Below are positions 9,244-30,649 of a stretch of DNA of 64,000 nucleotides, in pieces. Position 1 is the stretch's first letter, and each line of letters begins with the position of its first letter. A program made the translations under genes and the position numbers. The notes beneath the pieces were generated by a model. That model had not been told where the DNA came from and ran no database searches. It was given only the letters and a program-made list of their open reading frames with translations. Where the stretch lies: the NCBI GenBank assembly GCA_023539445.1, contig JAKCEW010000004.1, forward strand, positions 41,390-105,389. The letters run 5' to 3'. Source of the DNA: Candidatus Terraquivivens yellowstonensis (GTDB lineage: Archaea > Thermoproteota > Nitrososphaeria_A > Caldarchaeales > Wolframiiraptoraceae).

Positions 9244-10921
9244 GAACCCTTCTCTGTATCCATACTGGCGTCCAAGGTATTAGGAGTGATGCGTACTTGC
9301 CTTTAACAACATTTTCTAGAACACTCTTGTCCCCGATGGATAAGTATCCGGATAAAATAGCGCGTGCATACTCCACCGATTTATTTGCATCGAGATAATG
9401 CCCTATGTAAAGCACAACTTCTGTCAGGTCCCATGCCTTGTCACCGTTAAACGAAGCCTGTTCTAAGTCCGTTATGTAGACCTTATCCCCAGATATTATG
9501 AAGTTTTCAGGTTTGCAGTCTCCCAACGTTATATCGTATTGGTGAATTTTTGCCAATTCTCTCCCGGCCATAAATGCCGCCTTCTCTTGCATATTTTGTT
9601 CGTTTTTTGACATCCATATCTGCATGAGGTCTTGTCCCTCAATGAATTTCTGGAACAATAACTTTTTCTTCCAATTTATGTGGTATATGTCGGCTGTGTT
9701 AAAGCCAAGTTCCGCGAGTTTGTTAACGAAGTAAACTTCATTGGAAAGTCTGACCTCGGCCACGACTGAAAAGTTCTTCACACCAACAGTCCAAATCCTA
9801 GCCGCCACCCACTTTAGGTCCGTCCAGTTCAAGTATTTCTTCACGAAGATCTTCTCTTCTGTATCCTTTGTGTGGATCGTGACTATGTAAGTCGAGTTAA
9901 GCATACGGCCTATCTTCCTTATGGATATCTGGCTTCTATCGGCGTCATAAACTCGTTCAACAAAATCCAAGATGTCGAAACGTTCTTTTAATTGTTGTTT
10001 CCCTATGGCGGTTTTAATGAAGACGTATTCCTCTGGGTCAGGAAGGTCGTTTTCAGTCTTGTAAAAGAGTGACCGTTTGATCTTTGAGTATAGCTCCTCA
10101 GCTATGATGCGCGGATTAAAGCGTCCTGCATAACCGTGCACAAGATACATCTTAAACATTCTTTCGAAGTCGTAAAGTTTCTTAGCGAACGTACTTGTCT
10201 GGTTTAGGGTTGAAAGTACGAACTTGTTGGATAAGCGATAATACTCGCCATCCTTGACCAATAAACCCTCAGATTCCAGCTCCGTGAGAGCGGCGTAAAA
10301 TCCTTTCATGCAAATTTCTGTGTTGACCTTCTTATGGGGACCGGAAAATATCTTCGAATAACTGTAGCGCGCCGGCGGATATATCAGGGCCCTTCTTCTC
10401 AACTTCTCGAAAAGAAAGTACTCGGGCTGTATCAAAAGTTCACTCGCCGCCATCCTATGCTCTAGTATCAGATTATCGCATAGCTCCAGCACAACGTTCT
10501 TCTTGTAGGTCTTGTCGAATTCTTCCAAGAGCGCAGCACCTACAATAGGATAAAATGGTGTTAGGAGCCTTCCTGCCACGAATTCTCCTAAGGAGCCGTT
10601 TGTCACGTCACTCCTCATAGCATTTTCATCAACAGCTAAAACGGATACTGTAGGCTCAAAATTTCTTAGATAATAGTACTTTATATCTTCCTTGAAATCT
10701 TTCACGACGCATAACACATCTAAATCGCTACCCTTTGAAGAATAGCCAGAAAGTTGCGAGCCATAGATGCAGAGACACGATATGTCATCCTCCTTGAAGA
10801 TGCTTCTTGAGGCTTCTAGCGCTGTTTGCGTGAATAGCTTTAGCCTATCCTCTGGAATCGCATACATTCCCCTTATAAATCGGTTACGCTCAAGGTTTAA
10901 ACTTTTATTCTCGTTCAACAT
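9209..10921 (-). CDS. Nucleotidyltransferase-kinase fusion protein
   Basis: This 570-residue protein has a polymerase-beta-type nucleotidyltransferase signature near residues 54-70 (YGSQLSGYSSKGSDLDV). After a middle region that looks winged-helix-like comes a RIO/Bud32-like or aminoglycoside-phosphotransferase-like kinase domain. That domain has AGRELAKIHQYD, a catalytic GDCKPENF near residue 464 and a metal-binding DLEQ in place of DFG/DFE. The C terminus overlaps the neighbouring nucleotidyltransferase by 35 bases. A TTTAAA box 28 bases upstream of Met19 (position 10867) makes that ATG a good alternative start. The combination of both transferase types in one chain beside two more nucleotidyltransferases suggests one modification pathway, substrate unknown. 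Confidence 0.78.
   Translation of the reverse strand: MLNENKSLNLERNRFIRGMYAIPEDRLKLFTQTALEASRSIFKEDDISCLCIYGSQLSGYSSKGSDLDVLCVVKDFKEDIKYYYLRNFEPTVSVLAVDENAMRSDVTNGSLGEFVAGRLLTPFYPIVGAALLEEFDKTYKKNVVLELCDNLILEHRMAASELLIQPEYFLFEKLRRRALIYPPARYSYSKIFSGPHKKVNTEICMKGFYAALTELESEGLLVKDGEYYRLSNKFVLSTLNQTSTFAKKLYDFERMFKMYLVHGYAGRFNPRIIAEELYSKIKRSLFYKTENDLPDPEEYVFIKTAIGKQQLKERFDILDFVERVYDADRSQISIRKIGRMLNSTYIVTIHTKDTEEKIFVKKYLNWTDLKWVAARIWTVGVKNFSVVAEVRLSNEVYFVNKLAELGFNTADIYHINWKKKLLFQKFIEGQDLMQIWMSKNEQNMQEKAAFMAGRELAKIHQYDITLGDCKPENFIISGDKVYITDLEQASFNGDKAWDLTEVVLYIGHYLDANKSVEYARAILSGYLSIGDKSVLENVVKGKYASLLIPWTPVWIQRRVLSEIETILRSE
10895..10902. promoter_or_regulatory. Symmetric TATA box between divergent genes
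   Basis: The palindrome GTTTAAAC lies between the nucleotidyltransferase-kinase gene and the TldE-like gene. Its TTTAAA core is 32 bases from the plus-strand ATG at 10934 and 28 bases from the minus-strand internal ATG at 10867. Both spacings fit archaeal box A to start distances for short-leader or leaderless transcripts. One element may therefore serve both directions. The spacing is seen in the sequence; promoter use is inferred. Confidence 0.45.
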
Positions 10922-27417: not shown

Positions 27418-27759
27418 ATGCAATCAAAGCTACTTGGTAGTTTGGGTCTTGATGTGAAGGAGCAGAATGTAGCTAAAGAGGTGCTAATCCGTCTGCCAGA
27501 TAAGGATGTGGTAATAAAAGAGCCGACCGTCGTGGTTTTACAAGTTGGTGATGAAAAAGTCTATCAAATCATAGGTGGCGAAATTTCTGAACAGAAAGTT
27601 ATAGAAAGCGAAACTGGAGCCCCAACCTATGAGCCGACAGCAGATGACATAACAATCGTGGCACTCCAAGCAGGCGTATCTGAGGAGGAGGCAAGGAGGG
27701 CACTTATAGAGGCGGGCGGAGATTTGGCAAAGGCCATCCTCTTATTAAAGTCTAAATGA
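27418..27759 (+). CDS. nac: Nascent polypeptide-associated complex protein (NAC alpha)
   Basis: The archaeal homodimeric NAC binds nascent chains at the ribosome exit. The 113 residues contain the NAC core (VVIKEPTVVVLQVGDEKVYQI) and a C-terminal UBA domain from about residue 75 (DITIVALQAGVSEEEARRAL). The ATG start is conventional. However, the conserved family N terminus RELRRM continues upstream in frame to a CTG at 27394 that overlaps the previous TGA stop as CTGA. The true protein may be 121 residues. It overlaps the convergent gene by eight bases. Confidence 0.93.
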   Translation: MQSKLLGSLGLDVKEQNVAKEVLIRLPDKDVVIKEPTVVVLQVGDEKVYQIIGGEISEQKVIESETGAPTYEPTADDITIVALQAGVSEEEARRALIEAGGDLAKAILLLKSK

Positions 27760-29560
27760 ATTTTAAGGAATCGCAACCGGACTCTAAGTACTTCTTGGCA
27801 AGGTCAACAGATTCTTGAATTTCCTTATCTTTTGAGGGGCTAGATAGCATCACCATATAACCCCCGTTCAAAACTTTTGCTACTTTTGCCTCAAACTGTA
27901 ATCTATCTTCTTGTGGCATTTTTATATCATAAGGCACTATGGTAGTCGAATATGCAAAATTAGACGTAACGGGATAGAAAGATAATCCCGATATGGTCTT
28001 AAAGCCGAACCTGTCTATATCGGACTTGGCCATCCTCTTAGAGGATTGTGGTGGACATACGTTAGCGATCCCTATTTGAAAGTCCTTTTTGGAGCCCTTT
28101 AGCGCCAGCTTGACCATCTCCCTCAGCACATTCAACAAAATATCTGGGGAGCTTGATGTCGGATACTCTCCAGTTAAACACTTTATTGCCTCGAATAAAC
28201 CACACGGTGATACGATGAAATGATGCTTAATACTTACGTTCCCATGAAGCATGTTCGTTAGGTTCATCTTCTTTGTGAAGGCGGTTATAATGAGTTGCAT
28301 CGTCCTTCTCACAGATTCCATGAATTCTTCCTCGTTTCCCGCAGACTGAAGTGCCAACCTTGGTACATTCATCGCTGCAACACCGCACAGAAAGCTTTCG
28401 GCATTTTCTGGATTCTTAATGGAGATCTTGTATCCGTTGCTTGCTAAGACCTCCGATTTTGAACCAGTTGTGAATATTAACTCAAGGCCTTCCTTGGAAA
28501 TGTAATGTGGGGGCGCTTTCTCGATCAAATCTTTGCCTACCACGATGGATATGTTATTCCTCTGGTGCTCGTTAAATGCATCTATCAAGTCTTCTGCATG
28601 TTCTAAGTTATTAGCAGCATTAAGGACAAACTTGTGTTCTTCAAATGTACTTATGGAGGAGATTTTCATGAGTGTTGATGCAAACTGCTTTGATAATTTT
28701 TTATTCGAAATAATGTCGCTAAGATTGTACAAAAGAAACTCCTTTTCTACAATAAACATGTCCTCCATGAGATTTGCTACAAGTGCCTCGCATGTACCTA
28801 AACCTTCAACTTTATTTAGTAGGTCAGCATCGTACGCCTTACCATAAACCGACACAACCCATGATTCCAGAAAACAGATGTCTATTAGTCCGGAAAGGTA
28901 TGCGTCGGCTACGTTTCTTGGCAAAACGTTGAGTAACATGTATTCCTTCAAAACAGAGTTTGCCGCTGCCTTCATGACGGCATTTGTCCCACCTTGCTTT
29001 GAGGCATTCTTGATTGTCTGGGTAACATCGTAGATCGGCATACCAACTCTCGTCAGTTTGTGCCTATACTTCTCTAAACCCTGATCTATTAAAACGGAAT
29101 TTACAAGCTCCCTAATCAAGGGTGCGGAGAGGTACTCTATTTTAAGATCGAGAAGTTTTTCTTCCACGCTGGATGCAACTTTATGGGCGAGTTTTGCTGG
29201 CATGCCTGCCTCCTTAACCAGAGCGTTCACTATCTTGTTCTTATCAAAAGCCTCTATCGAACATTCACTACGTCTGACGATCAGTAAATCGGAGCCTGCT
29301 AGCATCTTTTTCGCTTGCTCGATCACTTCCAACATTGTCCTGCCGCTATGTGAAAGCTCGTACAGTTTTGTCTTCTCGTTAATTTTTATGAGCTTCGAGT
29401 TGAGTAGCTTCTTTAGGTGATAGGAAAACTTTCCTGCATCTTTCTGGGGATTCATACCCACCGAGCGTATCAATTCTGTGTAGTTCATGTCGTGCTTTGA
29501 AAGTTGCTTCAACATCTCAATCCTTATAGGTGACGCTAACGCATCCAATATCCTATCCAA
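27752..29560 (-). CDS. Winged-helix/ATP-cone protein with a degenerate anaerobic ribonucleotide reductase (NrdD-like) body
   Basis: The 602-residue protein starts with an ArsR-type winged helix (ILDALASPIRIEMLKQLS). An ATP-cone domain follows at about residues 95-190 (VRRSECSIEAFDKNKIVNAL). The rest is NrdD-like: LPRNVADAYLSGLIDICFLE, AAMNVPRLALQSAGNEEEF, CGLFEAIKCLTGEYP and FYPVTSNFAYSTTIVPYDI. It lacks the C-terminal zinc cysteines and the RVCGYxG glycyl-radical motif, so it cannot be a class III reductase. I set the start at TTG 29560 because frames upstream run through the promoter of argF. A dNTP-sensing repressor, analogous to bacterial NrdR, is my inference. Confidence 0.75.
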   Translation of the reverse strand: MDRILDALASPIRIEMLKQLSKHDMNYTELIRSVGMNPQKDAGKFSYHLKKLLNSKLIKINEKTKLYELSHSGRTMLEVIEQAKKMLAGSDLLIVRRSECSIEAFDKNKIVNALVKEAGMPAKLAHKVASSVEEKLLDLKIEYLSAPLIRELVNSVLIDQGLEKYRHKLTRVGMPIYDVTQTIKNASKQGGTNAVMKAAANSVLKEYMLLNVLPRNVADAYLSGLIDICFLESWVVSVYGKAYDADLLNKVEGLGTCEALVANLMEDMFIVEKEFLLYNLSDIISNKKLSKQFASTLMKISSISTFEEHKFVLNAANNLEHAEDLIDAFNEHQRNNISIVVGKDLIEKAPPHYISKEGLELIFTTGSKSEVLASNGYKISIKNPENAESFLCGVAAMNVPRLALQSAGNEEEFMESVRRTMQLIITAFTKKMNLTNMLHGNVSIKHHFIVSPCGLFEAIKCLTGEYPTSSSPDILLNVLREMVKLALKGSKKDFQIGIANVCPPQSSKRMAKSDIDRFGFKTISGLSFYPVTSNFAYSTTIVPYDIKMPQEDRLQFEAKVAKVLNGGYMVMLSSPSKDKEIQESVDLAKKYLESGCDSLKFI

Positions 29561-29666
29561 CGTCCGTCCTTCTTCGTCAACGAATATGAGAACCGCCCCC
29601 TTAAGCTGCGTTACATTGTAGGCGATAATTAAGATAAAGGTTATCGGTGCCTCATACGTTAGTACG

Positions 29667-29678
29667 TTTAAATATTTA
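29667..29678 (+). promoter_or_regulatory. TATA box for ornithine carbamoyltransferase
   Basis: TTTAAATATTTA is a strong archaeal box A. Its centre is about 26 bases upstream of the ATG at 29699, which implies a leaderless or nearly leaderless mRNA. Confidence 0.6.
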
Positions 29679-29698
29679 TTTGTAATACGATTTTGGGC

Positions 29699-30649
29699 AT
29701 GGTTAGACATTTCTTGGATTTTGAAGGGTACGCTGCGGAAGAGGTCCTTTACATACTGGATATGGCTATAAATTTTAAGAAAAAAGGGTATCCAGATAGC
29801 AAACCATTGTCCGGCAAATCTATAGCTTTGATTTTTGAGAAGCCATCTACAAGAACTAGGGTATCCTTCCAAGTAGCTATAGCAAAGCTTGGTGGTGAGA
29901 GCATACCGCTAAGCGTCAGCGAGATGCAGTTGAGTAGAGGAGAGCCTATAAGCGATACCATGCGCGTTCTATCGGATTACGTGAATGCTGTCGTCGCAAG
30001 GGTCTATAAACATGAGATGCTCTCCGAGATGGTAAAGTATAGTTCAGTTCCGGTAATCAACGCATTAAGCGACAAATTCCATCCTTGTCAAGCACTTGCT
30101 GATATGATGACTATCAAGGAGCTAAAGGGCAACATCTATGGGGTGAAGGTGGCTTACGTCGGCGATGGAAATAACGTTTGTAATTCTCTTATCCAAGCAT
30201 GCTCGCTGCTCGGTGCCAGAATATCTGTAGCATCCCCTAAGGAGTATCAGCCACCAGAAGATGTTGTAGCACAGGCGAAGGAGTGGGGAAAGAGGTCCGG
30301 AGGTACGATAGAACTAACGGAGAATCCTGAGGATGCTGTAAGGGATGCTGATGTTGTCTATACTGACGTATTCGTTTCCATGGGTCAGGAAGATGAAAGG
30401 GAAAGAAGGTTGAAGGTTTTTTATCCGAAGTACAAAGTGACAGAGAGGTTAATGTCCTTAGCAAAGCCGGATGCGATCTTCATGCATTGTTTGCCAGCGC
30501 ATAGAGGTGAAGAGGTAGAAGCATCCGTGATTGATGGAAAAAGGTCTGCGGTTTGGCAACAGGCCGCTAATAGGTTACATACTGAGGCAGCATTGTTATT
30601 GTATCTACTTCAAGATGGAAAAAAGTTTAATCCAAGCCTTTCCGTTTAG
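29699..30649 (+). CDS. argF: Ornithine carbamoyltransferase
   Basis: This enzyme makes citrulline from ornithine and carbamoyl phosphate in arginine synthesis. The carbamoyl-phosphate motif STRTR (FEKPSTRTRVSF) lies near residue 46 and HPCQALADM near 127. The ornithine-side motif is HCLPAHRGEE near 263. Length is 316 residues from the ATG. A TTG two codons upstream is less likely given the TATA spacing. No other arginine gene is nearby. Confidence 0.94.
   Translation: MVRHFLDFEGYAAEEVLYILDMAINFKKKGYPDSKPLSGKSIALIFEKPSTRTRVSFQVAIAKLGGESIPLSVSEMQLSRGEPISDTMRVLSDYVNAVVARVYKHEMLSEMVKYSSVPVINALSDKFHPCQALADMMTIKELKGNIYGVKVAYVGDGNNVCNSLIQACSLLGARISVASPKEYQPPEDVVAQAKEWGKRSGGTIELTENPEDAVRDADVVYTDVFVSMGQEDERERRLKVFYPKYKVTERLMSLAKPDAIFMHCLPAHRGEEVEASVIDGKRSAVWQQAANRLHTEAALLLYLLQDGKKFNPSLSV

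Follow-up and report, generated by a model that had tools for sequence, protein, structure and literature searches.

Introduction

NrdR (TIGR00244) is a bacterial protein of about 150 amino acids in which an N-terminal C4 zinc ribbon is followed by an ATP-cone. It binds operators upstream of ribonucleotide reductase (RNR) genes, senses ATP and dATP, and represses the genes that it binds. NrdR has been called rare in archaea (PMC9110341, PMC12176259).

Here we analyse a protein encoded in a stretch of 64,000 nucleotides from Candidatus Terraquivivens yellowstonensis (contig JAKCEW010000004.1, positions 41,390 to 105,389; the window), which belongs to an assembly of 1.16 Mb that is 95.8% complete. 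On our best reading this regulator works like NrdR without being a member of that family, its DNA binding and its sensing of ATP and dATP both being inferred. Like NrdR, it couples an ATP-cone to a DNA-binding domain and its gene is often found beside RNR genes; unlike NrdR, it carries an ArsR-type winged helix instead of a zinc ribbon, has an additional 400-residue dead NrdD, and is of other origin. With NrdD (TIGR02487; PDB 9d3x, 8p27, 4con and 1h7b) it shares the fold over residues 190-602, an ATP-cone placed before the body, the NLPR motif and, in many homologues, a zinc ribbon. It differs from NrdD in having neither the radical glycine nor the active-site cysteines and in its N-terminal winged helix, and the window protein also lacks the zinc ribbon. 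The winged helix is, by profile, that of the ArsR-type regulators NolR, NmtR and HlyU; however, the window protein has no metal-site cysteine and is fused to a large enzyme-derived sensor.

Results

Domain order and reading frame

The regulator gene and its surroundings in the window are as follows.

27752..29560, minus strand: whole regulator gene, encoding a winged helix, an ATP-cone and a catalytically dead NrdD body
29321..29560, minus strand: ArsR-type winged-helix DNA-binding domain, residues 1-80 (DUF7347)
29399..29437, minus strand: presumed recognition-helix stretch DAGKFSYHLKKL, helix 42-54 in the structure model
29066..29278, minus strand: ATP-cone, residues 95-165
27752..28993, minus strand: body with NrdD fold, residues 190-602, lacking the radical Gly, the active-site Cys and the zinc ribbon
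29561..29692, minus strand: intergenic region up to the divergent ornithine carbamoyltransferase gene, holding a GGGGG and the likely ATA start
29693-30649, plus strand: ornithine carbamoyltransferase (OTC, argF), divergent from the regulator gene and identified because a homologous neighbour from its ORF cluster has a Pfam match

The frame delimited by the earlier note (27752-29560, minus strand) is indeed open, over 602 amino acids and a stop codon, but its 5' limit, the TTG at 29560, is unlikely to be the start codon. This codon is CTG or CTT in two of the six Terraquivivens genomes, and no in-frame ATG, GTG or TTG near the start of the regulator is conserved among the six. An ATA at 29585-29587 on the minus strand, nine codons upstream of the TTG, is invariant in all six and is preceded by a few bases by a Shine-Dalgarno-like GGGGG. 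Judged from sequence conservation alone, the true start is probably this ATA; it would be a rare, non-canonical start and may possibly be regulatory itself.

Pfam searches placed three domains, each above its cut-off, in the order that had been read from the letters (winged helix, ATP-cone, NrdD-like body): DUF7347 at residues 5-80 (38.0 bits, cut-off 27.6), the ATP-cone (PF03477) at residues 95-165 (34.0 bits, cut-off 25.8) and NRDD at residues 378-593 (56.7 bits, cut-off 26.2). Such scores greatly exceed what chance would give. Through the winged helix, the family profile matched ArsR-type regulators in the PDB, namely NolR (2e-4), NmtR and HlyU. The window protein has no cysteine in residues 1-89, and its HTH_metalloreg score stayed below threshold (29.9 bits, cut-off 55). 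The presumed recognition-helix stretch is almost invariant phylum-wide, G43, F45, Y47, H48 and L49 being invariant in 20 diverse members. Identity with Csa3 was rejected: the PADLOC matches were weak and covered the winged helix only.

In the ATP-cone of Streptomyces coelicolor NrdR, the nucleotide is contacted by V48, K50, R51, E56 and K62 (PMC9110341). V95, E103 and K109 of the window protein stand at the positions of V48, E56 and K62, and the first two are invariant in the 20 diverse members. The inner-site Lys-Arg pair of NrdR, K50-R51, is replaced by R97-S98 in the window protein and by Thr-Ser in most other members, which counts against the proposed regulator, although Arg-Ser at this position was also seen in intact archaeal NrdDs.

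The NrdD body has kept its fold and lost its catalytic residues

Structure prediction aligned with NrdD had been set by the earlier note as the check on its reading of the C-terminal body, and the NrdD fold was found there. In an AlphaFold model (mean pLDDT 81.8, 23 aligned sequences), residues 190-602 matched NrdD structures with Z scores of 26-28 and an rmsd of about 3 Å over about 390-403 residues, and Foldseek again returned class III RNR structures (1e-13 to 1e-9). The family profile also reached NrdD chains in the PDB (9d3x, 5e-28), unlike a single-sequence phmmer search of the PDB, which gave no match. The window protein missed the TIGR02487 equivalog cut-off (64.8 bits versus 326.35).

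To follow the loss of catalytic residues, 118 regulators were aligned with nine intact NrdDs of the same phylum. The glycyl-radical motif RxxGY, present in 9/9 intact NrdDs, was found in 0/118 aligned homologues and 0/30 Nitrosopumilaceae copies; it is missing from the window protein, as had been claimed, and no close homologue has it intact. Four homologues retain a remnant of the radical loop in which the glycine is replaced, for example RVSAKH compared with RVTGYY. The first active-site Cys, again present in all nine intact NrdDs, occurs in none of the 118 regulators, and at the two finger-loop columns a Cys survives in only 2/118 and 4/118 of them. Residues that serve the fold persist: the Asn of the NLPR motif is kept in 117/118, and two glycines in 118/118 and 117/118. 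The zinc cysteines, also said to be missing, are indeed lost in the window protein but not family-wide, with the ribbon kept in about 72 of the 118 homologues and in 30/30 Nitrosopumilaceae copies. The window protein is an NrdD by fold, not by function.

Spread, origin and selection

Using a profile of the winged helix and cone, we detected the family in 268 of 397 Thermoproteota genomes and 118 of 171 genera (E <= 1e-12); the weakest of these matches may be cones of other proteins. Named matches include Aigarchaeota, Bathyarchaeota, Hecatellales, Culexmicrobium and Nitrososphaeria. Literature searches turned up no account of this family, most subscription papers being outside the search.

In a maximum likelihood tree of the cone and body, regulators and intact NrdDs fell on the two sides of one branch (100/99 support, 200/200 bootstrap trees); six long branches make the inner placements unsure. 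A single duplication, followed by a single fusion to a winged helix, should leave such a split. The tree thus shows a single origin, in which one dead NrdD copy was fused to a winged helix and gave rise to a clade beside NrdD.

Within Terraquivivens, where dS is near saturation, dN/dS was 0.01-0.05 for the winged helix, 0.005-0.03 for the cone and 0.08-0.15 for the body. All parts are thus under purifying selection, most of all the winged helix and cone, which evolve several-fold more slowly than the body.

Regulator genes beside RNR genes

Across 98 loci, an intact nrdD was found directly downstream of the regulator, on the same strand, in eight (all Bathyarchaeota), nrdJ occupied this position in four, and the regulator was convergent with nrdJ in one. 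In Nitrosopumilaceae, the regulator lies immediately upstream of nrdJ in 29/29 testable loci; in N. maritimus this class II RNR is Nmar_1627 (PMC4303638). A follow-up sample of 16 genomes from 13 further families, picked on taxonomy alone and with the outcome not known beforehand, had the regulator beside nrdJ in 8/16 genomes and 5/13 families. The chance of this adjacency is about 3e-20 at about 2 in 1800 per genome, a rough figure in which genomes were treated as independent. Since the regulator gene stands beside a working RNR gene in many lineages, it probably controls DNA-precursor supply.

No RNR gene adjoins the regulator in the window's family, nor in 8/13 of the follow-up families. 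In the window lineage it is flanked by NAC and OTC, with nrdJ on the same contig at a distance of about 56 kb. This single class II nrdJ, which has its own ATP-cone, is the only recognised RNR target in the window genome, and no second NrdD was found there. TIGR00244 had no match in the window genome or genus, nor in an NCBIfam scan of the window protein; the contrast that the earlier note drew with NrdR was therefore right, both in architecture and in the lack of any NrdR match in the genus. True NrdR also occurs in many Bathyarchaeota (family f5), and the idea of a clean replacement of NrdR by the regulator was dropped because f5 carries both; the regulator's task there may overlap with that of NrdR or differ from it.

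Some further features of these loci were read from the sequences. Five of the eight Bathyarchaeota loci have a glutaredoxin- or NrdH-like gene between regulator and nrdD, and a truncated remnant of such a gene occupies this place in another (L094). The intact nrdD at L073:3253-6177 (974 amino acids) has an apparent intein-like insert. In four Thermoproteota families without the regulator (f15, f24, f38 and f61), short open frames of about 95-115 amino acids match only the ATP-cone part of NrdR and are possible stand-alone ATP-cone proteins.

RNR neighbours and a preserved NrdD fold could also be explained by protein contact, the dead NrdD entering mixed oligomers that inhibit or tune a working RNR, with the winged helix serving oligomerisation or localisation. 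We find this very unlikely: the presumed DNA-reading helix is among the most conserved parts whereas the body diverges fast, the paired reductase gene is class III nrdD or class II nrdJ depending on the lineage, and no NrdD partner exists in the window genome.

OTC, for its part, adjoins the regulator in about 47 of the 98 loci, divergently in Caldarchaeales and convergently in many Bathyarchaeota. Control of another pathway, such as arginine and carbamoyl-phosphate use, would account for this neighbour and for the divergent promoter region that OTC and regulator have in common in the window. This proposal seems to us highly improbable, however: the convergent OTC of Bathyarchaeota has no promoter in common with the regulator, unrelated lineages have RNR genes downstream of it in the same orientation, and the OTC adjacency may be old synteny. 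The kept fold, NLPR Asn and glycines might suggest an enzyme whose chemistry has changed so as to dispense with the glycyl radical. This is barely credible: the radical Gly and the Cys of both active-site positions are gone, no conserved residue set replaces them, and the body is the fastest-evolving part of the protein.

Candidate operator and promoter elements

Between regulator and nrdJ, different genera of Nitrosopumilaceae share a conserved block of about 40 bases, placed upstream of the TATA region of nrdJ. In 11/29 loci, this block holds the exact palindrome TATGAANTTCATA, 112-127 bases upstream of nrdJ (shuffle rate 0.2%). In the complete genomes searched, it occurs at most two or three times genome-wide, and the other copies inspected were mostly inside reading frames. 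The palindrome is only a candidate operator: there are no binding data, and it could be the site of a different factor. The Nitrosopumilaceae regulator promoters do not contain the motif.

No operator common to the whole phylum was found. A matrix derived from the Nitrosopumilaceae motif gave no significant score in Terraquivivens, nor did the GAACTTCATA resemblance between that motif and the conserved block upstream of Terraquivivens nrdJ reach significance. A de novo search of Bathyarchaeota regulator promoters returned the TATA-like AGTTTAAACT and tRNA sequence, and was rejected as a source of a phylum-wide operator. The TTTAAACT extension is enriched in the Bathyarchaeota regulator promoters (Fisher p 2e-15, uncorrected for relatedness) and may be a core promoter element.

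Three other observations were made on upstream regions. In the Bathyarchaeota loci (L072-L133), TTTAAACT or AGTTTAAACT often stands at the TATA position of the regulator, where it is far commoner than at other TTTAAA sites of these loci. A tRNA-like sequence often lies just upstream of Bathyarchaeota regulator promoters. Six Terraquivivens genomes have a conserved block, GATATAGAACTTCATACTTCGCTCAGTAAGACG, after the upstream gene and before the nrdJ TATA-like element (for example at about 10550-10600 of locus L134); it too is a candidate operator, for which no binding data exist.

Discussion

We consider it probable that the window protein is a one-component transcription regulator of RNR genes, in which an ArsR-type winged helix was fused to a duplicated NrdD that then lost catalysis. 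The earlier note had already suggested that an inactive reductase could serve as the sensor of a regulator. That reading is supported here, and neither of the outcomes that would have refuted it, an intact glycyl-radical motif in close homologues or a C-terminal body without a predicted NrdD fold, was met. Further support, of which that note had no knowledge, comes from the repeated adjacency to intact nrdD or nrdJ and from the strong purifying selection that acts on the winged helix and the cone.

On the best reading it regulates RNR genes in response to dNTPs and is convergent with NrdR; its ligand, sign and operator are inferred, and no binding or expression data exist. The regulator would bind DNA near RNR promoters, and its ATP-cone, by analogy with NrdR (PMC9110341), would read ATP versus dATP. 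The NrdD body may form a dimer or oligomer that couples nucleotide state to DNA binding. This inference rests on an analogy with the NrdD of P. copri, which, going by the structure titles, was solved with dATP bound as dimer and tetramer. High dATP would lead to repression, which is the most likely sign, although activation is not excluded. An additional proposal is that the former specificity site of the body still recognises a second dNTP while the cone responds to ATP/dATP, so that one repressor would follow both the size and the balance of the pool; this is possible but in our view unlikely.

The regulator occurs in nearly all sampled Nitrosopumilaceae, a family with cultured ammonia oxidisers, and the proposal is therefore testable. 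The literature searched gives no account of how RNR transcription is controlled in most archaea. With a dead reductase as its apparent sensor, this widespread family would form a convergent counterpart to NrdR and a clear case of an enzyme turned regulator.
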